64,000 bases of DNA from a virus, in the IMG/VR virus record IMGVR_UViG_3300009181_000043, positions 1 through 64,000 of that record; one strand, given 5' to 3'. Position numbers and translations under genes: made by a program. The notes under the pieces are model-generated. The model was not told where the DNA came from. It saw only the letters and a list, made by a program, of their open reading frames with translations, and did no database searches. Positions within the stretch are counted from its first letter, which is position 1; each line of letters opens with the position of its first letter. Shown one piece after another: positions 1,200-59,477 of the stretch.

Positions 1200-1209
1200 C
1201 TATTTATAG
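1200..1209 (+). promoter_or_regulatory. Putative late promoter octamer (CTATTTATAG)
   Basis: TATTTATA at 1201-1208 ends 3 nt before the ATG at 1212. It is the reverse complement of the T4 late promoter TATAAATA and recurs just upstream of many genes in this window. Confidence 0.5.
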
Positions 1210-1211
1210 TT

Positions 1212-1670
1212 ATGAGCGATTTAACCACCGAAAAAAATGATAGATGTGTGCGGATTGCCAAGCGCAAATACAAAAAATGGCCTAGCGCATATGCAAGTGG
1301 TGCTGTAGTCAAATGTCGTCAAGGCAAGATTTGGAAAGGCGTCAGCGAAGAAGTTGTGGATGAAGGTGGATTCAACAAAGAAAAGTCGCAAGGACTGCAT
1401 GGTTGGTTTGCTCGACGTGGTGGTAAAGGTGGCAAAGGTTGGGTAGATTGTAATACATGTAGAAAAGATCCCAAGACTGGCCAAAAGAAATGCAAAGCGT
1501 GTGGTCGCCAAGCAGGTGAGAAGCGAGCCAAATATCCAGCGTGTCGTCCAACACCAAGTCAATGTACCAAAACCGGAGTCAAGAATAAAAAGGGTCCAAG
1601 CACAGCTTCTTGGAAACAAAAAAACGAAACCCTTGATTACGCAACAATAGCCAAAGAGTTGTATTTGTAA
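1212..1670 (+). CDS. DUF5872-like cysteine-rich basic protein
   Basis: A 152-residue, lysine- and cysteine-rich protein. The N-terminal third contains the segment WPSAYASGAVVKCRQGKIWK, which I recognise from phage proteins of the DUF5872 type. It is followed by a glycine-rich basic linker and a cluster of cysteines (CNTC, CKAC, PAC, SQC) that may bind zinc. Function is unknown, and a nucleic-acid or virion-DNA-associated role would fit the charge. An upstream start at 1179 lies inside the tmRNA terminator hairpin and is rejected. ATG 1212 sits 3 nt after the octamer TATTTATA. Confidence 0.75.
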   Translation: MSDLTTEKNDRCVRIAKRKYKKWPSAYASGAVVKCRQGKIWKGVSEEVVDEGGFNKEKSQGLHGWFARRGGKGGKGWVDCNTCRKDPKTGQKKCKACGRQAGEKRAKYPACRPTPSQCTKTGVKNKKGPSTASWKQKNETLDYATIAKELYL

Positions 1671-1675
1671 TTTGT

Positions 1676-2089
1676 ATGAGAATCTACAGTTTGCTTTATG
1701 AGACCAGCATATATGACTATTTGATTTGGGAACCCCAAGGCAAACTTAAGCATATTGCGGACACACTTGACACATTCAATAAATTTACATCCAATGATTT
1801 GTTCAGAGGCATGTCCAAAAAAGAATTGGGTGTATTGCAACGCCATGGTAAAGTGACTTCCAAGGGCAAGGGCAACACCCGCAACATCTATGGGAGTTAT
1901 CTTGCGAGTGATTTCAAATTGAGTGCGAGATTTGCTTTGGTAAACTACAGAGACAAAGGTGAAGGTGTTGTGATCGTAGTGGATAAAAATAAGTTACCAG
2001 ACTTAAAAACTGTTGATGATGGTAACTTTGTTACTACTTATATTCCGATAGAAGCAGTCAAACAAATTATAGATTTATCAAAGTTATGA
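1676..2089 (+). CDS. ADP-ribosyltransferase-like small protein
   Basis: A 137-residue protein. Its centre has LFRGMSKKEL, then KVTSKGKG...GSYLASDFKLSARFA, then a hydrophobic strand GEGVVIVVDKNKL. This order (an RG strand, an S-containing turn, a helix with alternating Ala, then a beta strand) resembles small ADP-ribosyltransferase-like domains found in phages, which use Arg, Ser and Glu motifs. A catalytic EXE or QXE motif is not obvious, so activity is uncertain. Its last codon overlaps the next ATG (ATGA), indicating translational coupling. The fold call is inference from pattern only. Confidence 0.6.
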   Translation: MRIYSLLYETSIYDYLIWEPQGKLKHIADTLDTFNKFTSNDLFRGMSKKELGVLQRHGKVTSKGKGNTRNIYGSYLASDFKLSARFALVNYRDKGEGVVIVVDKNKLPDLKTVDDGNFVTTYIPIEAVKQIIDLSKL

Positions 2090-2280
2090 GCAATACAATT
2101 AAAATTTCAAAAGCAGATGCACAAAAGAAGGTGTATGAATTGACCGAAACGTTGCTGTTCACCAAAAAGGATTTTAAGGATGTGGCAACTGGATACAAGG
2201 AACGTATCAAAGAAATTGAAAATGAAATCAAGGCTGTGGTAGAAGAGTCTGGTACTGTTACACCAACATCTACACCATAA
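2086..2280 (+). CDS. Small coiled-coil hypothetical protein
   Basis: A 64-residue protein, mostly alpha-helical by composition (many Lys, Glu and Ala with hydrophobics in heptad-like spacing), ending in a short Thr/Pro tail. It starts inside the stop of the previous gene (ATGA), so the two are probably made together, and a terminator follows directly. Family not recognised. Confidence 0.65.
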   Translation: MSNTIKISKADAQKKVYELTETLLFTKKDFKDVATGYKERIKEIENEIKAVVEESGTVTPTSTP

Positions 2281-2286
2281 AAATCA

Positions 2287-2317
2287 AGACACGCTTTTTT
2301 TACGGCGTGTCTTTTTC
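2287..2317 (+). terminator. Rho-independent terminator
   Basis: Stem AGACACGC/GCGTGTCT (2287-2294/2305-2312) with a T-rich loop, followed by TTTTCTTTTT. It closes the 1212-2280 operon. Confidence 0.85.
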
Positions 2318-2383
2318 TTTTTAGACAGCTTTGATTCAACAGGTTTTTTATCAACTAGAATGCTCTGTATAAATTTTTTAACG

Positions 2384-2411
2384 TTGACTTTCAGACTATT
2401 TGCCATATAAT
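2384..2411 (+). promoter_or_regulatory. Sigma70-like promoter
   Basis: TTGACT (2384-2389), a 16-nt spacer and a perfect TATAAT (2406-2411) end 8 nt before the ATG at 2420. The predicted start of transcription falls on or beside the start codon. Confidence 0.65.
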
Positions 2412-2419
2412 TAAATAGT

Positions 2420-2815
2420 ATGGTGAAAGTTAAAACCACGACACAAAAGTCTAGAAAAAAACAACAAGAAATTGTTGTTGATAATCAAATATCTAAACTG
2501 TCCAAAAGTTTGGAGATAGTGTGGATCAGCTACACACCAAATAGTTCAAAATATTTGGTGTACAAAAATATTCCGCTTGAGTTGCTTGTGGATGAAACCA
2601 CAGAAAAGGGTCGTAAAGTAATGGTATCTATATATCCAGACGGTCACGATGTATATTTGGTTGAATACCAAAGACCCGGCACAAAATCTTTTCCATTCGG
2701 CGGAACCAAAATTTACAATAAGACACTGGGAGAAAGTAGATATGTTTATCCTGCGGCTGTAGTCAAACACAAGGATATTCAATATTTTAATCGTATAATT
2801 GACGATTCTGATTGA
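2420..2815 (+). CDS. Hypothetical protein
   Basis: A 131-residue protein with a basic N-terminal tail (about 20 residues rich in Lys, Thr and Gln) and a compact, beta-rich-looking body containing many Tyr, Val and Ile. No signal peptide or membrane segment. No family is recognised. It has its own sigma70-like promoter with essentially no 5' leader, which suggests early or middle expression, unlike the structural genes further right. Confidence 0.65.
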   Translation: MVKVKTTTQKSRKKQQEIVVDNQISKLSKSLEIVWISYTPNSSKYLVYKNIPLELLVDETTEKGRKVMVSIYPDGHDVYLVEYQRPGTKSFPFGGTKIYNKTLGESRYVYPAAVVKHKDIQYFNRIIDDSD

Positions 2816-2840
2816 CATCTGTGAACCTGTGTATTATTGT
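2812..2840 (+). promoter_or_regulatory. Possible sigma70-like promoter
   Basis: TTGACA (2812-2817), a 17-nt spacer and TATTGT (2835-2840) overlap the end of the previous gene. The region shares the 12-mer ATTGTGGTAGAC with the promoter at 360-387. It would serve the pair at 2893-3336 with a leader of about 45 nt. Confidence 0.35.
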
Positions 2841-2892
2841 GGTAGACAACAACATGTATTAGTACTAACAACAAACCCAATAGGTAGTAATT

Positions 2893-3111
2893 ATGCAAAT
2901 AAAACATAAGAAAATGGATAATAACATTGAGTCGAGTGAGGCACCAAGAGATCGGTATGCTGTGTTTCGCAACGGAGCCAGAGTATCAGATGAAGAATAT
3001 TCCAGTCGAGCAGATGCTCAAGGTGAGTATGATCATTGGAATCGTGTGATCACACGCTGGCCAGATAATAGCAAGTTGGAAATTGTCAACCTAGCAAGAA
3101 AGGGTAAATAA
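2893..3111 (+). CDS. Small hypothetical protein
   Basis: A 72-residue hydrophilic protein with a RYAVFRNGARVSDEEYSSRADA segment typical of small phage proteins of unknown role. A second in-frame ATG at 2914 would remove seven basic residues and is equally possible. The next gene starts 4 nt after its stop, so the two form one transcript. Confidence 0.6.
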   Translation: MQIKHKKMDNNIESSEAPRDRYAVFRNGARVSDEEYSSRADAQGEYDHWNRVITRWPDNSKLEIVNLARKGK

Positions 3112-3114
3112 TAT

Positions 3115-3336: not shown

Positions 3337-3364
3337 ATAAATAGTTGATACAAGTTGTTTAATT

Positions 3365-3403
3365 GAAGAAGGGCATCAAATAATGGTGCCCTTCTTCTTT
3401 TAG
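3365..3403 (+). terminator. Rho-independent terminator
   Basis: Perfect 11-bp stem GAAGAAGGGCA/TGCCCTTCTTC (3365-3375/3387-3397) followed by TTTTAGTTTT. Confidence 0.85.
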
Positions 3404-3409: not shown

Positions 3410-3419
3410 CTATTTATTA
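3410..3419 (+). promoter_or_regulatory. Putative late promoter octamer (CTATTTATTA)
   Basis: TATTTATT at 3411-3418 ends 4 nt before the ATG at 3423 and directly follows a terminator, as expected for a new transcription unit. Confidence 0.5.
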
Positions 3420-3422
3420 GAT

Positions 3423-3815
3423 ATGGCCAAGCCAAAAACGTTTCACCAAACATTGGAGCTACCATCGGCGTTTAGCGTGATGGATGATTATATCGGCAAA
3501 CATAAGTCAAAACTGACAGAGCAAGTTGTTGCGTCGATTGAGTTTGCGATCAATAATGATTTACCAACTGTAGAAGTGTTTAATTTTCAAGGCTCGGAAT
3601 TTATGGTGGTATTAAGTTCATCCACGTTCAAAGAGAACTTGGACAACATCATGGCCTACTATATCAGTACGGAACAATATGAGTTCTGTGCCCGTGTTAC
3701 TAACGTTCAAAAACTACTCAACAATGAAAAAACAAATGAGCAAAAGAAAAGACACAAGCCCAAAAATTCACCAAAATCCAAAAATAAAGGATACGATTCA
3801 GATCAAGACTGTTGA
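3423..3815 (+). CDS. Hypothetical protein upstream of phoH
   Basis: A 130-residue protein with a folded first 100 residues (MDDYIGKHKSKL..., then a strand VEVFNFQGSEFMVVL) and a basic, Lys/Asn/Pro-rich tail. The tail is encoded in a stretch that also encodes the N-terminus of phoH in another frame. The overlap is about 90 nt (3724-3815), long for a phage operon, so either phoH starts later or the tail is dispensable. Function unknown. Confidence 0.6.
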   Translation: MAKPKTFHQTLELPSAFSVMDDYIGKHKSKLTEQVVASIEFAINNDLPTVEVFNFQGSEFMVVLSSSTFKENLDNIMAYYISTEQYEFCARVTNVQKLLNNEKTNEQKKRHKPKNSPKSKNKGYDSDQDC

Positions 3816-9604: not shown

Positions 9605-9614
9605 ATATTTATAT
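9605..9614 (+). promoter_or_regulatory. Putative late promoter octamer (ATATTTATAT)
   Basis: TATTTATA at 9606-9613 ends 3 nt before the ATG at 9617. Confidence 0.4.
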
Positions 9615-9616
9615 TT

Positions 9617-10726
9617 ATGATTAAATTCAAACATCTAGTGATTTTCACATCCATGCTGATTGCGGGCTGTGCTGCATTTTTTAGTGTATACGGTATTGGT
9701 CTTTTGTTTTCTGGAGCTATTGTTGCCGCAATGATAATGGCCAGTGCATTGGAACTTGGCAAGCTAGTAACAACATCGTGGTTATTTCGCTATTGGAACA
9801 TTGCCAATAGATTGATGAAAGTTTACATGGTAACTGCGGTTATTGTGTTGATGTGCATTACATCTCTGGGTATTTTTGGATATTTAACCGCAGCATTTCA
9901 AAAGAGTTCGTTGGAAACTGAATTGAGCATGACCAAGATTGTTGCCTTGGAAACTCAAAAGACACAAGAGTTTAAGAAAGTTGACAATGTTAGAATTACT
10001 ATTGACAAACTATTGAGTTTGCGTAGTTCACAAGAATCTAGATTGAGTCAAACCCTTACCAACGCAATCATCGCTCGCAATCCGATTCAGATGCAAAATA
10101 TTCAGAATCAGATCAATGATCAAATTTCTGATCTAAATAAACAGATCGATGCGGAAAATACCAAGTTGAAGGATGCTGGTGATAAGTCTACCAAGATAGA
10201 CGATGAAATTTTCAAACTCAAAATTGACAACAGTCAAAAGAAAGATATTACCACATTCAAATTTGTTGCGGATGAGTTTAATACCGATATTCGCCACGTT
10301 GTTAAGTGGTTTATTGTTGTGTTGATCACGGTTTTTGATCCATTGGCTGTGGTGTTGTTGTTGGCATACAATATGAGTTCCAATACACGCCAAAATAGCG
10401 AGCAAGATTTTCAAATGTATGGTGAAGAAAAAGTAGCTGCACCAGCACCAGTTGAACCAGCACCAGTTGAACATGAAAATATCAGAGAGGTTGAGAAAAT
10501 CGTTGAAGTTGAAAAGCCAGTAGACAGAGTTGTTGATCGTGTTGTTGAAGTGGAAAAGCCTGTGGATCGTGTTGTTGATCGTGTTGTTGATCGTGTTGTT
10601 GAAGTGGAAAAGCCTGTGGATAGAATTGTTGATAGGATCGTTGAAGTGGACAGACCCATAGTAGAAACCATCGTAAAAAAAATTAAAAACAAAACTCAAG
10701 GCGGCCGGGGATTGTTTAGTTTCTAA
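9617..10726 (+). CDS. Membrane protein with coiled coil and VDRVV repeats
   Basis: A 369-residue protein. Three N-terminal hydrophobic segments (about residues 5-25, 28-50 and 75-100) precede a long coiled coil rich in Lys, Asp, Gln and Leu (about 105-210). A fourth transmembrane segment follows (WFIVVLITVFDPLAVVLLLAYNM, about 235-257). The cytoplasmic-like tail has APVEPAPVE and many copies of VEKPVDRVVDRVV. A longer frame reaches back to 9548 inside the previous gene, but ATG 9617 sits 3 nt after the TATTTATA octamer and opens with a basic membrane-anchor sequence. Function unknown. It may be an inner-membrane lysis, exclusion or signalling protein. Confidence 0.7.
   Translation: MIKFKHLVIFTSMLIAGCAAFFSVYGIGLLFSGAIVAAMIMASALELGKLVTTSWLFRYWNIANRLMKVYMVTAVIVLMCITSLGIFGYLTAAFQKSSLETELSMTKIVALETQKTQEFKKVDNVRITIDKLLSLRSSQESRLSQTLTNAIIARNPIQMQNIQNQINDQISDLNKQIDAENTKLKDAGDKSTKIDDEIFKLKIDNSQKKDITTFKFVADEFNTDIRHVVKWFIVVLITVFDPLAVVLLLAYNMSSNTRQNSEQDFQMYGEEKVAAPAPVEPAPVEHENIREVEKIVEVEKPVDRVVDRVVEVEKPVDRVVDRVVDRVVEVEKPVDRIVDRIVEVDRPIVETIVKKIKNKTQGGRGLFSF
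10510..10660 (+). repeat. Tandem repeats encoding VEKPVDRVVDRVV
   Basis: Units of GTTGTTGATCGT and GTTGAAGTGGAAAAGCCTGTGGAT recur in frame within the membrane-protein tail. Exact copies at the DNA level imply recent expansion or recombination. Confidence 0.75.
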
Positions 10727-10931: not shown

Positions 10932-11426
10932 ATGATTACATCAATTCCTCAAAATGCGCTTATTGCGCTAGTTATAACAACCGTGCTGTTTCTAGGGAGC
11001 AGCATTTTTCTTTATATAACCCTAAGAAAATCTGAGTCACAGCTTGTTGAAAATCAGAAGAAGTTGGCTGATTACGAATTAGCATTCAAGGCTCAAAAAG
11101 ATCTTTCGCAAATTATGACAACTGGAGTTGCAACATTTTTGCAAATTTCCGTGAATGAATCTTTGAAGCGGGTGGAAGATTTGGAGATTCAACTCAAAGA
11201 ATTTGATACTACAAATTCCGAATTGACTCAGTGGGTTACCGATTTTCAAAAACTTACAGGAAATGTGTATAAACAGTTGAAATCTATCGATGAGCGTGGT
11301 ATGTTTGAAAAAGATGATGACGTTGGCTTCCTTTTCCAGGATATGTTGGGGATCATCACCGAATATAACAGAAGGGTTAATTTTAATGATAATAATACCG
11401 CCGATGAAAAACAAACGCAAAAGTAA
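10932..11426 (+). CDS. Membrane-anchored coiled-coil protein
   Basis: A 164-residue protein with one N-terminal transmembrane helix (residues about 8-30). A predominantly helical, charged region with coiled-coil character (SESQLVENQKKLADYELAF; SLKRVEDLEIQLKEFDTTN) and an acidic, Asn-rich tail follow. Its last 23 nt overlap the start of the late sigma factor gene in another frame. It has no recognised family. The pairing with another membrane coiled-coil gene upstream suggests related roles at the inner membrane. Confidence 0.65.
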   Translation: MITSIPQNALIALVITTVLFLGSSIFLYITLRKSESQLVENQKKLADYELAFKAQKDLSQIMTTGVATFLQISVNESLKRVEDLEIQLKEFDTTNSELTQWVTDFQKLTGNVYKQLKSIDERGMFEKDDDVGFLFQDMLGIITEYNRRVNFNDNNTADEKQTQK

Positions 11427-12429
11427 GGTATCTTCCGCTAAAGTGAAGACCGCAAAACTTTTGTCAAAAACCAAAAAAGACAAAAAGCAGAAGACTACTG
11501 TAGTTTACAAAGTAACTGATACTAAGAAAATCAAGAATGTAAAAAAGATTAAAAACGCTAAACCGGTAGATACCAACGTCGAAGTCGTCGCAACCGAGGT
11601 GATTGACTTACCTATTCAGACGATTGTTAAAAGCATAGAAGTTCGTAGAGATGTTGATGTTGAACCGCTGGTAAATACTGATAGTGGTGATGATGACACA
11701 GCCGATACTCTAAACGAGGATGGTACTAGGAAAGTGCGTCGTCGTGGTAGAAATAAGAAAAACAAGATCTACTTTAGCAAAGCTACTGAAGATGCCATTA
11801 TTGAATTCAACGCTGAAGAAGATATGGATAAGCGTAACCTTATCTATAATGAGCGAATTAAGTTTAGTTTTGAAAAGCTGGTCGAAAACATTTATAACAC
11901 ATTCAAATTCACGTATTTTGACACCGGCCCAATTGAAGTTCAACGTGAAACAGTTTCACATCTGGTAACAAACATACACAAGTTTCAAGCGGGTAAAGGC
12001 AAAGCATTTAGCTATTTTAGCATTGTTGCAAAGAACTATTTGATCTTCCACAACAACAATAACTACAAACGATTCAATCAACATGTGGACATCAGTGAAA
12101 CACCAAGTGAAGACTCAGTTTGTTTGCAAACTGAAGACAAGCATCATTATGATGTGCAGACCAAGGAATTCATGAAACTGCTGATTGACTATTGGGAAAA
12201 AAACGTTACCAAGATCTTTAGTAAAACGAAGGATTTGAATATTGCGTATGCTGTTATTGAGTTGTTCCGTAACTGCGAACGCATCGAGAACTTTAACAAA
12301 AAGACACTGTATCTGTTGATTCGGGAAATCAGCAATTGTAAGACGCAACAGATTACCAAGGTTTTGAATAGGATGAAGGGTTATCAATCCCAAATATCAC
12401 AGAACTATACTGATCAGGGTGTAATTTAA
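11404..12429 (+). CDS. 55: Late-transcription sigma factor (gp55-like)
   Basis: A 341-residue protein. The first ~130 residues are a Lys-rich then acidic extension not found in the 185-residue T4 gp55. The remaining ~210 residues resemble phage late sigma factors. RNLIYNERIKFSFEKLVENIYNTFKF is a region-2-like helix, and GKAFSYFSIVAKNYLI matches the conserved -10-reading segment of gp55-type proteins. The protein would direct host RNA polymerase to late promoters, with a sliding clamp and a gp33-like coactivator in T4. ATG 11404 is chosen within the end of the upstream gene. A terminator follows. Confidence 0.8.
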   Translation: MKNKRKSKVSSAKVKTAKLLSKTKKDKKQKTTVVYKVTDTKKIKNVKKIKNAKPVDTNVEVVATEVIDLPIQTIVKSIEVRRDVDVEPLVNTDSGDDDTADTLNEDGTRKVRRRGRNKKNKIYFSKATEDAIIEFNAEEDMDKRNLIYNERIKFSFEKLVENIYNTFKFTYFDTGPIEVQRETVSHLVTNIHKFQAGKGKAFSYFSIVAKNYLIFHNNNNYKRFNQHVDISETPSEDSVCLQTEDKHHYDVQTKEFMKLLIDYWEKNVTKIFSKTKDLNIAYAVIELFRNCERIENFNKKTLYLLIREISNCKTQQITKVLNRMKGYQSQISQNYTDQGVI

Positions 12430-12459
12430 CCATTGCCACAATTTTAAGTATAAAAACAA

Positions 12460-12487
12460 AACCAATCGACAAAACGATTGGTTTTTC
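12460..12487 (+). terminator. Rho-independent terminator
   Basis: Perfect 9-bp stem AACCAATCG/CGATTGGTT (12460-12468/12475-12483) followed by TTTC. It directly abuts the next octamer. Confidence 0.85.
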
Positions 12488-12496
12488 TATTTATTG
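12487..12496 (+). promoter_or_regulatory. Putative late promoter octamer (CTATTTATTG)
   Basis: TATTTATT at 12488-12495 ends 4 nt before the ATG at 12500 and immediately follows a terminator. It would open the baseplate operon. Confidence 0.5.
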
Positions 12497-12499
12497 AGT

Positions 12500-12850
12500 A
12501 TGGATACAAACTTTGAAATTTACAAAGGCAAGAACTTTTCGGGTCTTTGCAAAGATATTGTTAAAAACTCTGAGAGCAAGAAGGATCAAATTGATATTCT
12601 TATCTCTGAGTTACGTTCTTTGATCAAAACTGTGAATGATGCCATTATTATTGTGCCTCTCATTAAAGACTATTACGACGTGGGTGTGAAGAATGACGAG
12701 CAACTGGTGAAGCTGGCATCTATCGTTCAAAAATTAGTAGCAAAGGGTGAAGCTAGTGGTGAAGGTAATGGTATGATTTTAAGCGAAGACGAACGTAGAC
12801 AGTTGATGGAAGACGTTGTGTCTATCGCAGGTGTATCCAAAACTAAATAA
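12500..12850 (+). CDS. Small helical protein heading baseplate operon
   Basis: A 116-residue, mainly helical protein. A first helix lies around KKDQIDILISELRSLIKTVNDA, and the C-terminal region contains a Gly-rich turn and LSEDERRQLMEDVVSIAG. ATG 12500 is preferred over an in-frame TTG at 12494, which lies inside the octamer. The next gene follows after 2 nt. The position suggests a small baseplate or tail-completion protein, but the family is not recognised. Confidence 0.6.
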   Translation: MDTNFEIYKGKNFSGLCKDIVKNSESKKDQIDILISELRSLIKTVNDAIIIVPLIKDYYDVGVKNDEQLVKLASIVQKLVAKGEASGEGNGMILSEDERRQLMEDVVSIAGVSKTK

Positions 12851-16968: not shown

Positions 16969-17370
16969 ATGGCTACTCAAGCACTTGGACTAAAATTGCC
17001 GATACAATTGGGTCAAAATGGTTATTTTGACACCAATACGGCCACTGTTGCCCAAGTTGCGGACAACATCAAGAATTTACTACAAACAATTCCGGGTGAA
17101 CGTCGATTCAATAATGAGTTTGGGTCGAGCCTTTATAGTTTATTGTTTCAGCAAAACGTGGTTGAAGTAAATAAAGATATTATTGTTGATGCTGTGCAAC
17201 GTGATATTGATCGTTGGTTGAATGGTGTATTGGTCAATGATGTAAAAGTGAAACTAGCGGTAGATCAACCACAGAATAATAATGAGAATTCTATATTTAT
17301 AAGTGTGGTGTTTACATATAACAGATCTGCGGCCACTGTTGATGTAACACTCAATACCAATCGAATCTAA
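16969..17370 (+). CDS. 25: Baseplate wedge protein gp25
   Basis: A 133-residue protein of the GPW/gp25 family (T4 gp25 is 132 residues). The hallmark is TIPGERRFNNEFGSSLYSLLF, the conserved segment around the family Pro-Gly-Glu-Arg motif. DIDRWLNGVLVNDVKV and a C-terminal beta strand follow. gp25 joins gp6 and gp53 in the inner wedge core and links to the sheath. It overlaps the gp6 start by one base (TAATG). Confidence 0.92.
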   Translation: MATQALGLKLPIQLGQNGYFDTNTATVAQVADNIKNLLQTIPGERRFNNEFGSSLYSLLFQQNVVEVNKDIIVDAVQRDIDRWLNGVLVNDVKVKLAVDQPQNNNENSIFISVVFTYNRSAATVDVTLNTNRI

Positions 17371-28028: not shown

Positions 28029-28038
28029 CTATTTATAT
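28029..28038 (+). promoter_or_regulatory. Putative late promoter octamer (CTATTTATAT)
   Basis: TATTTATA at 28030-28037 ends 5 nt before the ATG at 28043. It is flanked by the inverted pair CATCC (28025) and GGATG (28041), so the start codon could be held in a small hairpin. Confidence 0.45.
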
Positions 28039-28042
28039 TGGG

Positions 28043-36580: not shown

Positions 36581-36590
36581 ATATTTATAG
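36581..36590 (+). promoter_or_regulatory. Putative late promoter octamer (ATATTTATAG)
   Basis: TATTTATA at 36582-36589 ends 5 nt before the ATG at 36595. Confidence 0.45.
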
Positions 36591-36594
36591 TAGA

Positions 36595-39015
36595 ATGTCA
36601 AATGCGCTGAACATCTATAACGAGAATTTTGGATATCAAGTTGTCACCAATGGAACATATGTGGCGATTGGTAATCCAAACTCAAAACCATACAGCTGTC
36701 AAGAGGGGTTTATCCGCATTGGTGAAGTGTTGGTATATCAAAAAAACCGATTTCAGTCCAACTACTCATTTGCAAAAACATATCGTAGACAGGCGTCGGC
36801 ACCAACTGTTATAACCCAAACTAGTTATGGTAAAGCACTGGCTATGTGTGATGATTGGTTGGCTGTGGCAGATACCGCATATAGTCAAAGTACCAGTGGA
36901 ACACCAACATCGGGTTGTGGAGTAGACATTTATAGACTGTACAATACATCCCCAACCGCAAGTTGTGACACAGATCCGGCGTCATGGACGTTAGATTCAA
37001 CTCCAGCATATTCAATAACATATACAGGCAATGTGTCTGATAAATTTGGTCAAGCTGTTGCGATCTCTGACAATTTTATGGTTGTTGGTGTCCCAGGTCA
37101 CAACAGTGATCTGGGTAAAATAATGATTTATCGTTACGATGGTGCATCTGGATTTGTTTATTATAAAACTGTGGTGTGTCCCGATGTTGGTCAAAAATTG
37201 TTTGGTGCTGCTGTTTCTATAGATAAACTTTCTGAAAATAGAATTGCTGTGGGAACTCTCACAACCACACAAAGTCGAGTTTATGTATATGATTTAACCA
37301 ACGATGCAAATGTGAGTGTTACTTTGCGTCAACGGTTGGAACAAAACACAGCATCAAAATGGTTGCAGACAGGTGGTGATAATACGATTTCATTTTATCC
37401 ATCTGGAAGCAACGCTCAAACACATACTAGATATGGTTCTTCAGTGGCAATTTCCAATGATATTTTGATTGTTGGTGCTCCCAATGATTTGATTTACTAT
37501 GAATACAGTGGTTCCGCACTGGTACGTCAACGGGGTGCTGCGTATGTGTACTATACACCATCTGGTTCTGGACAATATATACTTGAACAGAAATTGTATG
37601 GTGATGGCAACACGTTCAAAGACAATCTGTTTGGATATAGCATTGATGTGGATGATAAGTACATATTGATTGGATCACCAAAACCTTATTTTCCATTTTC
37701 AAGTGTGTATTTGTCGGCGTCTGTTGATCGATATAATTTGAATTTCGACGATGATGATTTTGGAGCAAGCACTTACAACGGTCAAACACTTTTGTATCGT
37801 TGGACAACCAACCAATGCTCTGGATCAACTATATTGAATTTGGCTACCACCGCTCCAATTTCATATCGAAAACGCATAGGTGAGTGCTTTACTGCATTTG
37901 GAGAGTCGGTTGCACTATCCAACGACAACATTGTGATTGGAGCACCAGCACCGTTGGATGATGATTTGTATTTACAAACGCCGTTGCTGACTGAGCAAAG
38001 TGATACTCCAACAACAGATTGCTCGACTGAGATTGCCGACATCTGGGAACTTGCAATGGAGGATTCAATTTGTGATTGTTCCGGTAATGAAATAAACGGT
38101 GGTGGAGGTGGAATCGTTTATGTTGTCGAGCAGCCCATTGTGGATGTATTTGGTAAAGCGTTTATTTACAACTTTTCTGATCTACAAAAGGACGCCAAGG
38201 TCGGAAATGTGTTCTATAACAACGATAAGTTCATTGTCAACAATACTGGTAGCGTACTACGTGATTTATTGCGTGACCCAACCAATACTTTGAATGATTA
38301 TATCTACGGATCATATCAAAGCCAAATAACGTTGAACGAAAAGCAGTTTATTTGCACAATTGAACCAGGCGAGTTTAATGTCAGCACAAATCCAACCGCA
38401 ATCACTGGATCTGCGTTTGATTATGCTATTTCAAACGACGAACAGTTCAACTTTACGGATCTAGATCTGATTCTTAGATATATTAATTCTAAATTGACCA
38501 CCAATCGTAGTGAATATTGGTGGGATGTTTTGGTAGAGGGCGATATACAACAAAGTCAATTCACATTCTTTACGTCGTCGATGTACAACTACACACAAAG
38601 TAAATTGACACCCGAGTTAAAGTGTGTACTCAACAGTAAGAATTTTGATATTAATAACGATGGTATTGTTGATTATTCCGATGCATACATGCTCTGGAAT
38701 TACTATATTGAGAATCTAGAGATTGTTAATTATAAACAGTACATTTCTCCAACGTCAAGACGCAACAACTACGATGATATTATCAAGTTTTTGGATACTA
38801 AAACCGGCAAAGGTTTTGGCAATAAAATTAAAAATGAGTTCTTTGCTTATCACATCAGCGCATCTTTGGACCCAACTGGTTCCTATCTTGCTCCGTATAT
38901 TACCGATGTAGGTTTGTATGCGGGCGCAGATTTGGTGGCTATTGGTAAAATTGCAAGTCCGATTAAAAATAACGGACAAATTCCAATCAATATTGTGGTG
39001 AAATGGGATACCTAA
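36595..39015 (+). CDS. FG-GAP/integrin-like adhesin with dockerin-like site
   Basis: An 806-residue protein. Residues about 1-470 contain repeats such as FGQAVAISDNFMVVGVPGHN, YGSSVAISNDILIVGAPNDL, FGYSIDVDDKYILIGSPKPY and FGESVALSNDNIVIGAPAPL, typical of FG-GAP beta-propeller blades in integrin-like adhesins. Around residues 680-700, NFDINNDGIVDYSDAYMLWNYY has the EF-hand-like DxNxDGxxD calcium loop of dockerins, preceded by a second helix-like segment. The C-terminus (APYITDVGLYAGADLVAIGKI) matches that of the 26913 protein. It is probably a host-receptor-binding tail protein. Confidence 0.8.
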   Translation: MSNALNIYNENFGYQVVTNGTYVAIGNPNSKPYSCQEGFIRIGEVLVYQKNRFQSNYSFAKTYRRQASAPTVITQTSYGKALAMCDDWLAVADTAYSQSTSGTPTSGCGVDIYRLYNTSPTASCDTDPASWTLDSTPAYSITYTGNVSDKFGQAVAISDNFMVVGVPGHNSDLGKIMIYRYDGASGFVYYKTVVCPDVGQKLFGAAVSIDKLSENRIAVGTLTTTQSRVYVYDLTNDANVSVTLRQRLEQNTASKWLQTGGDNTISFYPSGSNAQTHTRYGSSVAISNDILIVGAPNDLIYYEYSGSALVRQRGAAYVYYTPSGSGQYILEQKLYGDGNTFKDNLFGYSIDVDDKYILIGSPKPYFPFSSVYLSASVDRYNLNFDDDDFGASTYNGQTLLYRWTTNQCSGSTILNLATTAPISYRKRIGECFTAFGESVALSNDNIVIGAPAPLDDDLYLQTPLLTEQSDTPTTDCSTEIADIWELAMEDSICDCSGNEINGGGGGIVYVVEQPIVDVFGKAFIYNFSDLQKDAKVGNVFYNNDKFIVNNTGSVLRDLLRDPTNTLNDYIYGSYQSQITLNEKQFICTIEPGEFNVSTNPTAITGSAFDYAISNDEQFNFTDLDLILRYINSKLTTNRSEYWWDVLVEGDIQQSQFTFFTSSMYNYTQSKLTPELKCVLNSKNFDINNDGIVDYSDAYMLWNYYIENLEIVNYKQYISPTSRRNNYDDIIKFLDTKTGKGFGNKIKNEFFAYHISASLDPTGSYLAPYITDVGLYAGADLVAIGKIASPIKNNGQIPINIVVKWDT

Positions 39016-39017: not shown

Positions 39018-39027
39018 CTATTTATTA
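39018..39027 (+). promoter_or_regulatory. Putative late promoter octamer (CTATTTATTA)
   Basis: TATTTATT at 39019-39026 lies 20 nt before the ATG at 39047, a wider gap than for most other copies. Confidence 0.4.
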
Positions 39028-39046
39028 TAAAGAATACTAGAAACAT

Positions 39047-39532
39047 ATGGCAACCCAATCTGATAGCAAAGTGATTGATCGTGAGTCAACAAACAGAAGT
39101 TTGGCTGACAGATATTTATCGGGTCAAGCAGCGGGTGGTGCATACCAACCAGTTCAAAAGAACGTAAAATCCCAAGGAACCAATGAATTGGCAGTGCAGA
39201 ACAGCATTGTTGATGCCAAGTATACTTCCACCAAGGGTTTCAAGTTGGGTACCAACACTGGTACTGAAAACTTTAACACTACTGCTTTGAATTATAGCGA
39301 TAACATCAATGGTGGTGTGCGTACCGATGGTGTTGATAAAATCGCAACCAATTGGAATGGTGCAGGAAGCAAAGCTGCTTTGTATACAACCACAGCCGGA
39401 GGATTCCAAACCAAAGCAGCAGTGGGACAATCACAATTTAATGATGCTCAAGGACTACAGTCCAAGCAACAATCCCTTTATATGAAGGGGTTCAATAACC
39501 AAAAATACAGTAACGGTAAGTTTACTCGCTAA
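39047..39532 (+). CDS. Small structural-like protein
   Basis: A 161-residue protein without Cys, rich in Gly, Asn, Thr and Gln, with no hydrophobic segment. It looks partly disordered (KSQGTNELAVQNS; GGFQTKAAVGQSQFN). The composition is common among minor virion or head-completion proteins. Family not recognised. It has an octamer upstream and is 19 nt before the RuvC-like gene. Confidence 0.55.
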   Translation: MATQSDSKVIDRESTNRSLADRYLSGQAAGGAYQPVQKNVKSQGTNELAVQNSIVDAKYTSTKGFKLGTNTGTENFNTTALNYSDNINGGVRTDGVDKIATNWNGAGSKAALYTTTAGGFQTKAAVGQSQFNDAQGLQSKQQSLYMKGFNNQKYSNGKFTR

Positions 39533-44287: not shown

Positions 44288-44330
44288 TATAAATAGTTCA
44301 CGGTTCCACTTTTTTGGCAATATTTATAAA
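44288..44330 (+). promoter_or_regulatory. Late promoter region of sheath gene
   Basis: A forward TATAAATA (44288-44295) and an inverted TATTTATA (44321-44328) precede the sheath ATG (44382). The leader contains the ribosome-binding site AAAGGA near 44366-44371. It is one of the few leaders in the window with a real Shine-Dalgarno site, as expected for a very highly expressed protein. Confidence 0.55.
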
Positions 44331-44381
44331 GTAAACATAACTATCCAAAGTTAGGGTTAACACTGAAAGGAATATAAACAT

Positions 44382-47300
44382 ATGCCAATACAAGAAGGTG
44401 GACGTTGGAGTCCAGAACAATCAATAGTATCTCCCGGCGTTTTTACCCGAGAGATTGATCAATCGGGCCTCGCCCAAGGCGTGGCCAACATCGGTGGTGC
44501 TATCGTGGCACCATTTGCAGACGGTCCTGCATTTTTTCCAAGAATCGTCACCGACGTTGCAACATTAGAACAGGTGTTCGGTGTTGCTGACGGCGTTTAT
44601 TACGGACCATACACCACCAAGGAATACTTGATTCAACAAGGCGTCGTAACAGTCGTTCGTGTTGGTGGTTTGACTGGTTATTGGCAAAAGAATCCGCTGG
44701 TGGTTTATGCACAACCCGGCGCTTGGGCACGCAGCAGCGATATTGGTGCATTGACAACAGCATCGTTCATGTATTTGAACAGTGACAACTATACTGCAAA
44801 TATTCAATACGTTCACTCAAGTTCAGCATGGGTAATCCCTGCCGCTGGTACATCCGGTATTCCTACAGGCCCTGAGTCTGGTATCAGCGCAAGTATTAGT
44901 TTGACTACCAAGGCACAAGTAGTAAGTTTCCTTGGATCTTACTCATATTTGGCAAATATCAATAATTTGTCAGCATCGTTGTCAACAGCATTGACTGCAA
45001 GAAAATTGGTAAGTATTACTACCCTTAATGCATATGCCGCATTTAGCGCATCGGTTGTGGCAGGTAGCGGCAAGGTCGCCAAAAATGGTGGATCTTCTGA
45101 TTATGCTCTGGCTGCGTTCGACGTGGAAAAATTCATTCCAAAAGGTGGTTTCTATGTGTCGGGGTCTGGTTTAGCTCAAGAAACTCGATCATTGAATTCA
45201 ACACTCAATGGTGTGTGTACTGGTAACAATGCCGTTCGTAGTTGGCCCGCTAACTCTGGTTCGTATTTGACAGCATCAATCACAGTTTCGGATGGTCAAG
45301 TAACTTGGCCATTTGTGTTTATTCTGTCAGCATATCCATCGGTCGCAAACACCACGGGATATACTTTCAATAAACTAGCAGGATCTATTAAGAATCTATT
45401 TGCGCCGGTAGTTGCGTATGATAATTCGTTTGTAAAGTTTAGTGGTAGCATCAGTGCTCGCTTTGGTGCTGCTGCACTGACCAGCAATTATCCAGCAAAT
45501 TATGCTGGTACTGGGTATTTGAGTGGTAGCCAACTATACGGTGGCAAGCAATTGAGTCTGGGAACTGTTGGTACTACCAATCGATTGGTTAGAAAATTCA
45601 CAGCCCAAGGGCCTGGAAACACCAACTACAGTGGGTTTTTCTATATGTCATCAAGTGCTCAAGGTCAAAACACCGATGAAGCAACTCAAATTGCAACAGC
45701 AATCAACGAAAGCTCTGAAACTGTGTTTCGGTTGAGTTCTTCTAAGTTGAATATGGGTAGCACCACATCAGACATTACTTTGGCATATGACAAAGACACA
45801 TTTGATGCAACCAGCACACTGATTGTTCACAGCGCAAGTTTCGCAAGTGTACGTAGTGCCGCTACTTGCGGCGCAGCACTTCGCTTCTTGGGTATTGTAT
45901 CAGGTGCATACGGTCCATACGATGGTACATTCGTAGCCGATGCTAATGGAAGCGCAGATCCATGTAATCCTGCTGGTGACGGTCGTAAGAACATGGTGTT
46001 GGGTGTGTTGGCTAATACCCAAAATGCTTCAACTCAATTCGACAACAACTATGCGGTATATGGATTTGTGGACTCAACCGTGGCTCAATTGACAAGCTCT
46101 GTATATCCTTACAAGGGCAACATCAATCCTACCGAAAACCAATATCAATTGGCTTTGCGTTACAACTTCACCGATCCGGATGGTAACACCACAGATGGTA
46201 CATATGGTTACTATGGTTTCAGCTTGAATGAGTCTGACAACAACTACATCAAGGATGTGTTTGGTGCCGATCCTACGGTTGGTAATCCATCAAAGCAAAT
46301 CGCTGGACAGAAGGTAGAAGCAGCATACACCTACGTTTTGTTTGAAGACAGCATTCAACGTTTCTTGGCAGAAAAGACTCGTTCAACAGCTGAGGGTGGT
46401 GGTTGGAAATTGCAAGTGGCAACCGCGCCTTCGTCTGGATTCAGCGTTGGTGAATCTATGAAATTCGTAGATCAATATTCATACGATCCAAACAGTGGTG
46501 ATTCACAATTCGCAATCAGCAATGCATCAACACCTTGGATCTACAGTCAACAAATTGCTCCATTCAAGGGTAGTTCAGATGCATCTGCACACCCAGTCAA
46601 GTTCAAGTTGTTTAAGGTTCATACCTTGAGCGATGGTACATTGAGTAACCAAAAGTACAAGATCGAAATCAGCAACGTCAAGTTGGCTGGTACAGTTCCA
46701 GGTAGCAACTATGGTACGTTTACACTCGCAGTTCGCTCATATAGCGATACTGATAAGCGTCCTAAGTATTTGGAAATCTACCAAAACTTGAACCTTGACC
46801 CAGACAGCGCAAACTTCGTGGCTCGCCGCATCGGTGACCGTTACGCATATATTACCTTCTCAGGTAAGATTGTGGAATACGGAACTTATGTAAACTTGAG
46901 CCGTAACATTCGTATTGAAATGACAGACACTGCTTACCCAGAGAGTATCGTTCCTTACGGATTTGAATCATATAGTAGCCCAGTCGATAGTACGTTGAGT
47001 ACCTTCTTGCCAGCAGTTCGCTACAGCAAGGCTTCTATCTACGGTCTTGGACCCGGTAAGTATCCATCGGGTACTGTGTTTGGTGAAGTTCCAGAGGCAA
47101 GTGAAGAAATTGCATATCTGTATCCTACCGCATCGTTTGGTGTTGGTGTAGATATTGATACCAAGCAATGGTTCAAGCCGCTGCCATACTACGGTGGTAA
47201 TGATCAAAACGGTGACAACATCGACTTTGATCTTGAAGCCAAGGTTTGGGGAACTGAAAACGCTCACTATTATGCTCAAGGTGTGGCCGCAAGCACGGGT

Positions 47301-48426: not shown

Positions 48427-48481
48427 TTTATATTTTTGAAGTGTATGTTAATATGTATCTATTAGATAAGGAGTATTGTAT

Positions 48482-50068: not shown

Positions 50069-50078
50069 ATATTTATAG
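50069..50078 (+). promoter_or_regulatory. Putative late promoter octamer (ATATTTATAG)
   Basis: TATTTATA at 50070-50077 ends 4 nt before the ATG at 50082 and follows a terminator. Confidence 0.5.
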
Positions 50079-50081
50079 ATA

Positions 50082-51116
50082 ATGATCAAATTAAATATTC
50101 TCCTAAATGAAGTATTGAGTGAAGGTGGAGCGGGTGGTCACATGGACCATCCTTTTGACTTTGCTAGCAATGGCAAACAACTTGTCAATGTATTTGTAAA
50201 AACAATTGATACATTGAAAAAGGGTACCGGAAGTGTAAAAATTGATGGTGTCAATGCCAGCATTCGTTTAGCCAATGGACAATTTGTAATGGATCGTGGT
50301 AGTGCTAAACCGTTTGATGTGCAGGGTATGCGACCATCCGATTTGGCAAAACGGTTTGAACCTGGACATGGATTCATAAAGATTGGTAGTAAGGTTATCA
50401 ACATTTTTGACGATGCAATTCCAAGTACACAATCAGAACTGCAACAACTTGGTCTATTGAATAATCCAAATATTCTATTGAATGTGGAATATGTTGAGGG
50501 GCAGACAAATGTTGTGGGATATGGAGACATTGGAAACTTTTTAGCAATTCACGGACTCAAAGAAATCAAACCAAAAACCTTTGGTAAAACTGGACAAGTA
50601 AAAAGTCGTGTGGCAGTGGAAATTTCTTATGATAAAGATGTGATGCAAAGTTACATCAATAAGTTGAATATTGTTGCCAAGAAATATGGTTTCAAAGTAT
50701 TGGGTAGTGTTGGCACAACATTCAAATCGGAGCCTAGTTTGTCAAAACCACTGAATGAAAAGATTACACTGTATCCAGACGGTCAACCAGTAACAAAGAG
50801 TCTCAACGATTGGTTGAAAGCTGTTAAGATCGAAACTCCACTAATTACCCGTGAGCAGTTTATTGCGGCCAGAAAGAGCAAAAATATTGGTAAAGATTTT
50901 GTTGGTCAAGATATTAAAAAGATTATCAACGATACTGTTGTGTATATTGCCACAATCAAATTGGGTGATGAAATTTTGAAAAATGCCACCAGTGAGATTG
51001 GTGATTTAGAAAAACACGAAGGTATTGTGATTCGTGATCCGAGCATTTATAGTAAACCATATAAAATAACTGGTAGCTTCATTATTAATGGACTTCAGAG
51101 TGGTTTTAGCAAATAA
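50082..51116 (+). CDS. Nucleotidyltransferase/ligase-fold protein (DUF6267-like)
   Basis: A 344-residue protein. It begins with EGGAGGHMDHPFDF, a motif I associate with the DUF6267-type phage family. Motifs of the covalent nucleotidyltransferase (DNA/RNA ligase) superfamily follow: K53-I-D-G in VKIDGVNASIRL (motif I), LLNVEYVEGQT (motif III-like) and EGIVIRDP (motif IV), then KPYKITGSF (motif V-like). It may seal nicks or modify ends. A role near packaging is inferred only from the neighbouring terminase and portal genes. Activity is unproven. Confidence 0.7.
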   Translation: MIKLNILLNEVLSEGGAGGHMDHPFDFASNGKQLVNVFVKTIDTLKKGTGSVKIDGVNASIRLANGQFVMDRGSAKPFDVQGMRPSDLAKRFEPGHGFIKIGSKVINIFDDAIPSTQSELQQLGLLNNPNILLNVEYVEGQTNVVGYGDIGNFLAIHGLKEIKPKTFGKTGQVKSRVAVEISYDKDVMQSYINKLNIVAKKYGFKVLGSVGTTFKSEPSLSKPLNEKITLYPDGQPVTKSLNDWLKAVKIETPLITREQFIAARKSKNIGKDFVGQDIKKIINDTVVYIATIKLGDEILKNATSEIGDLEKHEGIVIRDPSIYSKPYKITGSFIINGLQSGFSK

Positions 51117-55306: not shown

Positions 55307-55316
55307 ATATTTATAT
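55307..55316 (+). promoter_or_regulatory. Putative late promoter octamer (ATATTTATAT)
   Basis: TATTTATA at 55308-55315 lies 14 nt before the ATG at 55330. Confidence 0.4.
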
Positions 55317-55329
55317 TTAATGGAACTAT

Positions 55330-56196
55330 ATGCGTAAGAAAGCTAAACATTCTAAGTTTAAGAACAGTGGCGTATTATTTGAGCTACTCACACGCCAAAT
55401 TACCGCCGATATCTTGGCTGGGCGAGACGAATCCTTTACGAAGAATTTGATGTTCAAGTACTTCAACGAAGGTACTGCTTTGGGCAAAGAATTTCAACTA
55501 TACAACTTTTTGGTCAACCAGTCTTCTAAAAATACTGAGTCGGCTGATCGTATAATTGGTGTGGTTCTTCAAACACGCTCTAAGTTGAACGAGCGTGATC
55601 TAAATAGCCAAAAGTATAATTTGATCAAAGAGATTAAGGATAAATTTGATATCGATGAATTTTTGAAAAATAAAATTCCAAACTACAAATTGTATGCGAG
55701 TGTATACAAACTGTTTGAGAGCCAAAGTTCCGACGAGGCAAATATTGGAGTTGAAGACGTTGTTGAGGCTAGAGAATTTGTAATTGAGAATTTAACAAAA
55801 GAGAAGAAAACCGACTCTCAGGCATTGGATGTATATAGTTCACAACCGGCCGACGTTAAGTTGCTCGCATATAAGTTTTTGATTGAGAATTTTAACAAAA
55901 AATACTCAGCACTGTTGCCTGCTCAAAAAACTTTGCTCAAGGAGTATATCACAAATGTGTCCAACACCAACAAGTTTACTGAATTTGTCAATGATGAATA
56001 CAAGCGAGTTTCTGATGCTTTGAAGGAACGTTCCATTCTTGTCAAAAGCAACATCATCAAGATCAAGCTCAATGAAACTGTTACTCAACTTTCAAATAAG
56101 ACAATAACCGGTGTTGTTAAAGAAAATCAATTGGGTAGCTTATTAAGCGCATACGAATTGATTGATGAGTTGAACAAATTAGCCAATGAAAACTAA
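55330..56196 (+). CDS. Conserved hypothetical, prohead region
   Basis: A 288-residue protein, largely helical with a basic N-terminus (RKKAKHSKFKNSGVLFELLTRQITADIL). It occupies the place of the T4 prohead-core genes 67/68, between portal and protease, but is far longer than those. No motif of an enzyme is visible. Its last 11 nt overlap the next gene. A structural or scaffolding function is inferred from position only. Confidence 0.65.
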   Translation: MRKKAKHSKFKNSGVLFELLTRQITADILAGRDESFTKNLMFKYFNEGTALGKEFQLYNFLVNQSSKNTESADRIIGVVLQTRSKLNERDLNSQKYNLIKEIKDKFDIDEFLKNKIPNYKLYASVYKLFESQSSDEANIGVEDVVEAREFVIENLTKEKKTDSQALDVYSSQPADVKLLAYKFLIENFNKKYSALLPAQKTLLKEYITNVSNTNKFTEFVNDEYKRVSDALKERSILVKSNIIKIKLNETVTQLSNKTITGVVKENQLGSLLSAYELIDELNKLANEN

Positions 56197-57946: not shown

Positions 57947-57954
57947 TTTGAAAC

Positions 57955-57964
57955 CTATTTATAG
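57955..57964 (+). promoter_or_regulatory. Putative late promoter octamer (CTATTTATAG)
   Basis: TATTTATA at 57956-57963 ends 4 nt before the ATG at 57968. Confidence 0.5.
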
Positions 57965-57967
57965 CAT

Positions 57968-58423
57968 ATGATCAAGCTAAAACACCTAGTAGAAAATTCA
58001 ACCGAGACGGCATATGCTCCCTTGAGCAAGGAGGAAAAGATTAAGTTGCGTGAAACTATCAAGTCTTACAACGAATATCGTAAGAGCTTGAAGGCATCGG
58101 TTGTGTACGAGACCGCTAACAAGATTATGGAAGCTGTGAATCTTGCCGAGCGTTATGCCATCAAGGAATGTAATGAATGGATGGAAGCCAAGATGGTTGA
58201 GCGTGATATGAAGGATGTCAAGAAGATGGCTCAAAAGTTGTATGAAGAAGCACACAAAATCAAGAGTGTGGAGCAACAACTTGAAATGTTGTATGAAGAA
58301 ATTGGTTTGAAATTGGAGCGTTATTTTGAAATTGCAGACCCTATTGAGGTTCAACAAGGTACTGCAACTCCTACTTCACAACCTGCTGCGCCAGCACCAA
58401 TGAAGAGTGTGGAAAGTAAGTAA
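57968..58423 (+). CDS. Helical head-region protein
   Basis: A 151-residue, almost entirely helical and charged protein (KEEKIKLRETIKSYNEYRKSL; YEEAHKIKSVEQQLEMLYEEIGLKLERYF) with a Pro/Ala/Thr-rich tail of about 25 residues. It may be a core or scaffold-associated protein, since it lies between gp21 and gp22 apart from two minus-strand genes. No family is recognised. Confidence 0.65.
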   Translation: MIKLKHLVENSTETAYAPLSKEEKIKLRETIKSYNEYRKSLKASVVYETANKIMEAVNLAERYAIKECNEWMEAKMVERDMKDVKKMAQKLYEEAHKIKSVEQQLEMLYEEIGLKLERYFEIADPIEVQQGTATPTSQPAAPAPMKSVESK

Positions 58424-58801
58424 TTACTTCAACCCTTTTAACTTGGGATCTGATGGTACCGATTCAATAAAGGACAGCAGCTTTTCAAAACTCTCGAAGA
58501 CGTAACGACGGTGTGTCTCAAGGACATAACCGTCTTCGTCTTTGTATATCTTAACTGGTACCAATTGGTCCAACATTTCGAGCGTAGGAACTTCGATCTC
58601 ACTCACCATATCAGTGTCGTTGTCGATCTTGAATCCCATGTCACCCAACGTGTCAATTTCATGAAAGTTCCAACCACTTGGATGATCAATATCAATCAGC
58701 TTGAATTTATCTGATTCTACTGGCGCATCACCGTAAGCACGGTTGAGGAAATTTCCCAATTTGATTTGGGAGTAATGATTGTGATAATTTTTAGAGTCCA
58801 T
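58424..58801 (-). CDS. Hypothetical protein, minus strand
   Basis: A 125-residue protein on the opposite strand inside the head cluster. Asp/Glu-rich with several His and Tyr (YHNHYSQIKLGNFLNRAYGDAP; a C-terminal VLETHRRYVFESFEKLLSFIES). ATG at 58801 is chosen, because an upstream in-frame TTG at 58819 lies inside the neighbouring gene. It starts 11 nt inside the end of the other minus-strand gene. Function unknown. Confidence 0.6.
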   Translation of the reverse strand: MDSKNYHNHYSQIKLGNFLNRAYGDAPVESDKFKLIDIDHPSGWNFHEIDTLGDMGFKIDNDTDMVSEIEVPTLEMLDQLVPVKIYKDEDGYVLETHRRYVFESFEKLLSFIESVPSDPKLKGLK

Positions 58802-59384
58802 ATGAATTGATTCGGTCAATAAAGTCGGCTAGTATCTTGCCCTTTTGCGCATCTGGTTGGTTAAAGATGGTACTTAAAGTGTAAACGATCTTGGGTTTGT
58901 CACTGTTCTGACTTGCCCCACGAATTTCTACAAAGCAAGCATAATTGTACATCCCGCTGTTTTGATTATTTTTCAACTTCTTGAAGACATAACTTTTGGT
59001 GGTTTCATTACTGAATACTTCTGCACTCAACTCGTTGCTGCTTTTCTTGTGAACAAAGTTGACTTTACCAAATCCACCAAATCCATTTTGTTTGTTTTGA
59101 AAAGTAAGCAATTCTTGTTTATCAAATGGCACGCCTATATTTTCGTTCAGTAATTGATCAAAACTTTTACCTTCTACTTCTCGCATTTTGCTAACACTGT
59201 ACTCTGCTTCTTTGAGTCTATTCACAATTTCTTTTACTTTTGTGAAGTCTCTCGCAGCTTTGGTACTAATGTCGTGTGCCGTTTTTCTCAGATTGGCTGA
59301 GACTTTTTTGGGCGACACATCACCTTTTTGGACTGCTCTTACGAGTCTAAAGTATCGTGCTTGTTTTTCCGATTTTGCTGGCAT
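58791..59384 (-). CDS. Minus-strand protein with DUF3008-like N-terminus
   Basis: A 197-residue protein. The N-terminus PAKSEKQARYFRLVRAVQKG is a pattern seen in small phage proteins of the DUF3008-like type (PAxSxxQxRxFxLvxA). The middle is helical and charged. The C-terminal half (SAEVFSNETTKSYVFKKLKNN; SYVFKKL) is beta-rich. It has its own octamer on the minus strand, 6 nt before the start codon, and heads a two-gene unit within the head cluster. Confidence 0.65.
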   Translation of the reverse strand: MPAKSEKQARYFRLVRAVQKGDVSPKKVSANLRKTAHDISTKAARDFTKVKEIVNRLKEAEYSVSKMREVEGKSFDQLLNENIGVPFDKQELLTFQNKQNGFGGFGKVNFVHKKSSNELSAEVFSNETTKSYVFKKLKNNQNSGMYNYACFVEIRGASQNSDKPKIVYTLSTIFNQPDAQKGKILADFIDRINSYGL

Positions 59385-59389
59385 ACATC

Positions 59390-59399
59390 TATAAATAGC
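59390..59399 (-). promoter_or_regulatory. Putative late promoter octamer, minus strand
   Basis: Plus-strand CTATAAATAG reads CTATTTATAG on the minus strand. It ends 6 nt before the minus-strand ATG at 59384. The motif thus follows gene orientation. Confidence 0.5.
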
Positions 59400-59430
59400 A
59401 AAAAATTTATGATTTTCTCTTTTTTAGTTA

Positions 59431-59477
59431 TATTTATTATGAAATGCGTCAATGTCTTTGATGCCACACTAACATAA
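59431..59477 (+). promoter_or_regulatory. Scaffold-gene leader with mini-ORF
   Basis: TATTTATT at 59431-59438 immediately precedes a 12-codon reading frame (ATG 59439 to TAA 59477). A small hairpin TTGGA/TCCAA lies further down, followed by TTAGGAAAGG before the scaffold ATG. The mini-ORF may be chance. Confidence 0.35.

Follow-up and report, generated by a model that had tools for sequence, protein, structure and literature searches.

Late and structural genes of phage T4 are preceded by a single 8-bp AT box, TATAAATA, which has no -35 box and is read by gp55, a protein with sigma domain 2, together with gp33 and gp45. The T4 box spans -13 to -6 (PMC2988020), and in a T4 control stretch it was located 14-28 nt, mostly 23-28 nt, before the genes, which carried Shine-Dalgarno (SD) sequences. 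The late promoters of phages phiKZ and AR9 are also short AT-rich late motifs near the start site, with AR9 5' leaders of 26-491 nt (PMC5312081), but they are read by phage multisubunit RNA polymerases, unlike the reading proposed here. The start codon of bacterial leaderless genes is preceded by a TANNNT box at a distance of about 12 bp (PMC3160421). An octamer comparable with these elements, TATTTATW (that is, TATTTATA or TATTTATT), was identified in the window, the whole 64,000-nt stretch of DNA analysed here, which represents bases 1-64000 of the 99,122-base IMG/VR virus record IMGVR_UViG_3300009181_000043.

The major capsid gene of the window (60694) encodes Gp23. By major capsid protein the nearest annotated cultured relatives were Microcystis phage Mel-JY01 and Flavobacterium phage immuto, with Rhodothermus phage RM378 further off, thus the window phage was placed among the 'far-T4' phages; a megablast search of phage records with the first 20 kb gave no match. 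The comparison covered 24 non-redundant relatives with 432 genes, collected via the protein encoded at 11404, and 80 further loci added in a second scan by capsid-protein alignment.

The nonamer [A/C]TATTTAT[A/T] is most likely the -10-type late promoter box of this far-T4 group, used in sense orientation, start-adjacent in the clade of the window and predicted to give leaderless transcripts there. It shares with the T4 late promoter the single 8-bp AT box before late or structural genes, six of eight bases, the lack of a -35 box and a predicted sigma-domain-2 partner protein. It differs in that the central AA is replaced by TT, A or C is needed before the box, and the box lies 3-7 nt from ATG with no SD sequence.

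Position, spacing and orientation of the octamer

TATTTATW occurred 23 times in the window against 10.1 expected, and none of 100 shuffles reached 23. With the gap counted from the octamer end to ATG, 16 of the 80 called genes of the whole record had an octamer at gap 3-7, the gap being exactly 4 in ten of them, while shuffled 20-nt upstream sequences gave a mean of 0.58 such genes and a maximum of 4. The octamer described in the earlier note, made from the sequence of the window, is thus real and far commoner before genes than chance would allow. The nine near-start copies which the note had named were all present, with gaps of 3-5 nt:

1200..1214, plus strand: late box C-TATTTATA, 3 nt, ATG, gene 1212-1670; after terminator 1150-1185
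3410..3425, plus strand: late box C-TATTTATT, 4 nt, ATG, gene 3423-3815; after terminator 3365-3397
9605..9619, plus strand: late box A-TATTTATA, 3 nt, ATG, gene 9617-10726; gap 2-7 in 15/23 clade orthologs
12458..12502, plus strand: terminator hairpin 12458-12485, late box C-TATTTATT 12488-12495, 4 nt, ATG, gene 12500-12850; 22/24 clade orthologs
28029..28045, plus strand: late box C-TATTTATA, 5 nt, ATG, gene 28043-29653
36581..36597, plus strand: late box A-TATTTATA, 5 nt, ATG, gene 36595-39015
50069..50084, plus strand: late box A-TATTTATA, 4 nt, ATG, gene 50082-51116; terminator immediately upstream
57955..57970, plus strand: late box C-TATTTATA, 4 nt, ATG, gene 57968-58423; 14/23 clade orthologs
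59382..59398, minus strand: late box C-TATTTATA, 5 nt, ATG, gene 59384-58791; 8/10 clade orthologs

Four more distant copies had also been reported. Those before 39047, 55330 and 44382 were confirmed as leadered, while the copy assigned to 59533 was reversed: the one adjoining the ATG (59524-59531) is TATAAATA when read along the coding strand, and the correctly oriented octamer is located at 59431-59438.

39018..39049, plus strand: leadered late box C-TATTTATT, 20 nt, ATG, gene 39047
44320..44384, plus strand: leadered late box A-TATTTATA, 53 nt, ATG, gene 44382
55307..55332, plus strand: leadered late box A-TATTTATA, 14 nt, ATG, gene 55330
59430..59535, plus strand: leadered late box A-TATTTATT, 94 nt, ATG of 59533, the gene preceding the major capsid gene

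Two octamers lying 68 and 70 nt before genes 17370 and 21230 were left uncounted, as they are inside upstream coding sequences. These copies (17294-17301 and 21152-21159) were conserved at the same distances from the next gene in 18/23 and 15/19 relatives, which may reflect coding constraint or internal late promoters.

In the 24 relatives, 81 octamers were found within 60 nt upstream of the 432 genes and 76 of them had a gap of 2-7, a peak that was missing for reversed and scrambled octamers. When simply the first ATG after [AC]TATTTATW was taken on both strands, 202/429 copies in the clade had it at gap 3-7; the corresponding counts were 15/158 for distant relatives and 39/649 for the reversed octamer. 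This count uses no gene calls, so the spacing result is independent of the gene caller. The base preceding the octamer at 84 distinct sites was A (58%) or C (38%), with G or T in 3%; the conserved element is therefore the nonamer given above. No -35 element was revealed, only T/A-rich sequence upstream of the box, consisting largely of terminator tails.

The earlier note had described the octamer as the reverse complement of the T4 late promoter. For TATTTATA against TATAAATA this is exactly so, and it could mean that a T4 late promoter is directed away from the gene, giving antisense or divergent transcripts. Such an inverted promoter is barely credible, since the strand bias of the octamer matches gene direction (33 on the plus strand, 6 on the minus strand), TATTTATT is used too, the conserved flanking bases lie on the gene side, and at most sites the upstream gene is co-directional and a divergent partner is lacking. 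It is also unnecessary, because TATTTATA read in the sense direction already matches TATAAATA at 6/8 positions; it is this match that matters, and the reverse-complement description is misleading.

Probable transcription starts and predicted leaderless geometry

Only 1 of 232 genes with an upstream spacing below 10 nt to a co-directional neighbour had the octamer, compared with 40 of 66 at a spacing of 40-80 nt. At intergenic gaps of 35-150 nt, 47 of the 70 genes with the motif and 3 of the 157 without it had a terminator-like hairpin with a U-tract immediately before them; these counts include orthologs and are not independent. Genes 1212, 3423, 12500 and 50082 are examples, in agreement with the earlier note, in which several copies were said to follow terminators directly. 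At gene 12500, 2 nt separate the terminator stem from the octamer and 4 nt the octamer from the ATG, so transcription of this gene must begin within that stretch, barring terminator read-through. One more copy precedes a non-coding unit composed of a tRNA-like sequence (664-733) and a tmRNA (757-1144):

622..630, plus strand: late box C-TATTTATT (octamer at 623) before the non-coding unit; no ATG at 3-7 nt

The sequence at 664-733 resembles tRNA-Met(CAT), and a similar sequence exists upstream of the tmRNA in relative G001. It was not called by ARAGORN, and its fold energy was unremarkable (z -1.1).

Rarity inside operons, terminators directly upstream and the copy before a non-coding unit together point to the octamer being a promoter, which marks the starts of transcription units and not of translation. 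The other option raised in the earlier note was an AT-rich translation signal; this would be an unstructured or S1-type element of the mRNA, replacing the SD sequence in a non-SD host. The fixed distance to the start codon and the scarcity of SD motifs in these phages would suit it, but it is contradicted on several sides and is very improbable: genes inside operons also need translation and almost all of them are without the octamer, the terminators directly upstream would exclude it from upstream transcripts, orthologs in distant relatives have it at 13-40 nt, and one copy stands before the non-coding tmRNA unit. In addition, A-rich upstream regions were seen in non-motif genes and not in motif genes.

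In the record of the window, the first T of the octamer was located 11-15 bp before ATG, with a mode of 12; a gap of 4 places it at 12 bp, the position of the TANNNT box in bacterial leaderless genes. The SD core was found in 0/93 motif genes, compared with 14.6% of the remaining genes of the clade, and the start codon was ATG in 91/91 motif genes. Leaderless genes of Actinobacteria and Deinococcus-Thermus have in common with these genes the box-to-start distance, the ATG, the lack of SD and a -10 box adjoining the open reading frame (ORF). They differ in that phages are concerned here, with two promoter classes, one presumed to be late and read by a phage sigma factor and the other of host-type sigma70 form. 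A homing-endonuclease-like gene (48476-49987, phrog_3339) stands behind a clear SD sequence (AAGGAG), unlike its neighbours, and looks like a recent arrival.

A late promoter whose RNA starts a few nucleotides upstream of the AUG, with ultra-short leaders of 1-7 nt in place of strictly leaderless mRNA, is a less likely alternative. The variation of the gap between 3 and 7 nt speaks for it, as do the sigma70-type -10 boxes 6-9 nt before the start (see below), but such a leader is too short for a ribosome-binding site, so the functional reading would be the same. Any start after the box would leave a leader of at most 7 nt, whatever the exact register.

Candidate sigma factor

The natural partner proposed in the earlier note was a gp55-like factor:

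11404..12429, plus strand: gp55-like sigma factor, predicted octamer reader

By sequence search of Pfam, PDB and PHROGs this protein had no sigma match and no family match. An AlphaFold2 model built with 20 relatives gave two ordered helical regions with modest confidence. When it was compared by VIA-align, T4 gp55 (7d7c_F) came first with Z 11.3, a value which in helical proteins is not decisive alone, and nearly all other rows listed were sigma factors. Alignment of the 11404 family to six gp55 proteins by hhalign gave E 1.1e-4 and a probability of 57% over the sigma-2 region. The remote gp55 match and the predicted structure thus point to a sigma-domain-2 fold with an extra C-terminal helical domain. 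Homologs were identified in immuto, Mel-JY01 and LR756508, and the octamer is common to immuto and Mel-JY01. The annotated sigma factor of RM378, a phage with almost no octamer, did not match the 11404 protein.

The gp55-like factor is favoured as the partner by its top structural match and by its homologs in the octamer-bearing immuto and Mel-JY01, and the 11404 protein would then read the octamer. It is unlikely that the late promoter is read by another factor, such as a host sigma or an unrecognised phage protein, and that the 11404 protein has another role. The remoteness of the gp55 match and a binding that is only predicted leave room for this, while the homologous sigma-like gene in the three relatives, two of which share the octamer, and the predominance of sigma factors in the structural search argue against it.

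At the late switch, host RNA polymerase with the gp55-like sigma factor would most likely melt the DNA at the box, and RNA would start about 4-6 nt downstream of it. In distant relatives the same initiation would yield an ordinary leader. In the window clade, where the box is at 3-7 nt (mode 4), the first transcribed base would be at, or a few bases from, the A of the AUG; with the box moved beside the start codon, late mRNAs should be leaderless (leader at most 7 nt), and ribosomes would start on the leaderless mRNA. The exact start site, recognition by the 11404 factor, late timing and leaderless translation are the steps that we infer.

Relatives, a second promoter class and the weight of the evidence

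In immuto the octamer is located upstream of annotated late (structural) genes, namely those for terminase (17 nt), portal (16), sheath (25), tube (21) and tape-measure (18) proteins; in Mel-JY01 it was found at 1-52 nt, mostly 12-52. Both phages thus have the same octamer before late genes and a homologous 11404 protein, and their late promoters could be recognized in this way, but the octamer lies mostly about 10-50 nt upstream with an ordinary leader, unlike in the window clade. At a capsid identity of at least 62%, 82 octamers were at 2-7 nt against 44 elsewhere within 60 nt, while at 53-60% identity 18 were at 2-7 nt and 83 further away. In the capsid-protein tree, a single 37-row clade (support 99/97) held 31/31 leaderless rows, with three exceptions that were weakly sampled. 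The fixed distance claimed in the earlier note therefore holds at the near-start copies but is not general, its confinement to one clade having been missed. Orthologs of gene 69064 had the octamer at 2-7 nt in 13/21 clade members and at a larger distance, mostly 15-31 nt, in 20/26 distant ones; their protein N-termini are homologous, so the start codon is correct.

Leaderless starts are the common but not the sole arrangement in the clade. The octamer of 55330 was kept in 17/17 clade orthologs (gap 9 nt upward) and 17/17 distant ones (from 16), and an ATG that occurs by chance at gap 4 ahead of this gene was not conserved in relatives. The operon of the major capsid gene has a leader of 88-102 nt conserved in relatives, and a leaderless small ORF considered between the octamer at 59431 and gene 59533 was not conserved. 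Unlike other late units, this leader (window 59439-59532; L102, L109, L110, L113, L118, L132) contains a conserved stretch around TTGGAGTTCTYCAATARCTTCA.

A sigma70-type class, which the earlier note had missed, was found with the same geometry. TTGACA occurred 41 times on the sense strand of clade intergenic regions against 8.7 in shuffled sequence, more than a dozen of these copies coming from one orthologous locus, and 3 times against 3.2 in distant relatives. The pattern TTGACW-N16-18-TANNNT-N5-8-ATG was counted 33, 17, 85 and 34 times in four whole relative records, with 3, 0, 2 and 1 in the reversed control. It was at control level in five distant records, immuto and Mel-JY01, the last two showing no enrichment of such start-adjacent promoters, unlike the window clade. 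The -10 box is most often followed by the start codon after 6-9 nt, which agrees with the octamer gap of 4-7 once the two additional bases of the octamer are added. Three sites were identified in the window:

360..396, plus strand: sigma70-type leaderless promoter TTGACA-N16-TAGACT-N6-ATG, gene 394
2384..2422, plus strand: sigma70-type promoter TTGACT-N16-TATAAT-N8-ATG, gene 2420
63275..63311, minus strand: sigma70-type leaderless promoter TTGACT-N16-TACAAT-N6-ATG, gene 63277

In relatives the two classes tend toward separate genome blocks, as expected for genes that are presumably early and late. At L010:7546-7653 (also L004, L007, L018, L065), a gene judged by eye to be small heat-shock-like has TTGACA 105-130 nt before it and a conserved leader, about 100 nt long, with no Rfam match, possibly an RNA thermometer or other leader element.

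A Bacteroidota host was not supported: the -7 box TAHHTTTG showed no enrichment in the clade (17 copies against 18.8 in shuffled sequence), which is weak evidence against such a host, since the box was likewise not enriched in immuto. A host search via ribonucleotide reductase among genome contigs gave a single archaeal match, which was irrelevant. For a glycosyltransferase-family protein (29722-32334), the only phage relatives found were in Xanthomonas phage XacN1 and Stenotrophomonas phages CM1 and RAS14 (37-40% identity).

Several points weigh against the late promoter reading. As many of the orthologous sites lack independence, Fisher p-values make the evidence look stronger than it is, and leaders are kept by some late units (55330, 39047, 44382 and the capsid operon). 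The gp55 relation of the 11404 protein would be a remote one, considering the 57% probability, the missing Pfam or PHROG family and the modest model confidence. Furthermore, with the T4 register RNA at gaps of 3-4 would begin 1-2 nt inside the AUG, which requires an initiation point 1-2 nt nearer to the box than in T4. An interval of 4-5 nt to the start is normal for the -7 element of F. johnsoniae (PMC6847099); by analogy this Bacteroidota interval would fit better than the T4 register, but the host here is probably not a member of Bacteroidota. On the other side, a diverged late promoter with leaderless transcripts, as the earlier note had suggested, is favoured by the spacing, the position at unit starts, the terminators, the restriction to one clade and the orthologs with variable leaders. 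A full-text literature search for TATTTATA with phage and promoter or late promoter revealed no earlier description, subscription journals lying outside its coverage. The element would thus be a diverged T4-type late promoter, altered in both sequence ([AC]TATTTAT[AT] instead of TATAAATA) and position.

Taken over both classes, it is reasonably likely that a far-T4 clade, with genomes of at least 369 kb at the upper end, shifted both its presumed early promoters of host type and its sigma-dependent late promoters to the start codon. Most transcription units would then have a leaderless first gene, probably as an adaptation to a leaderless-proficient host lineage. An unannotated and abundant phage group would thereby gain a readable regulatory code, in which late and presumed early genes, and start codons, could be told from sequence alone. 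The T4-type late promoter is seen here to change in both sequence and position, and the pattern suggests a one-time change of translation initiation mode in a phage lineage, perhaps together with a change of host.

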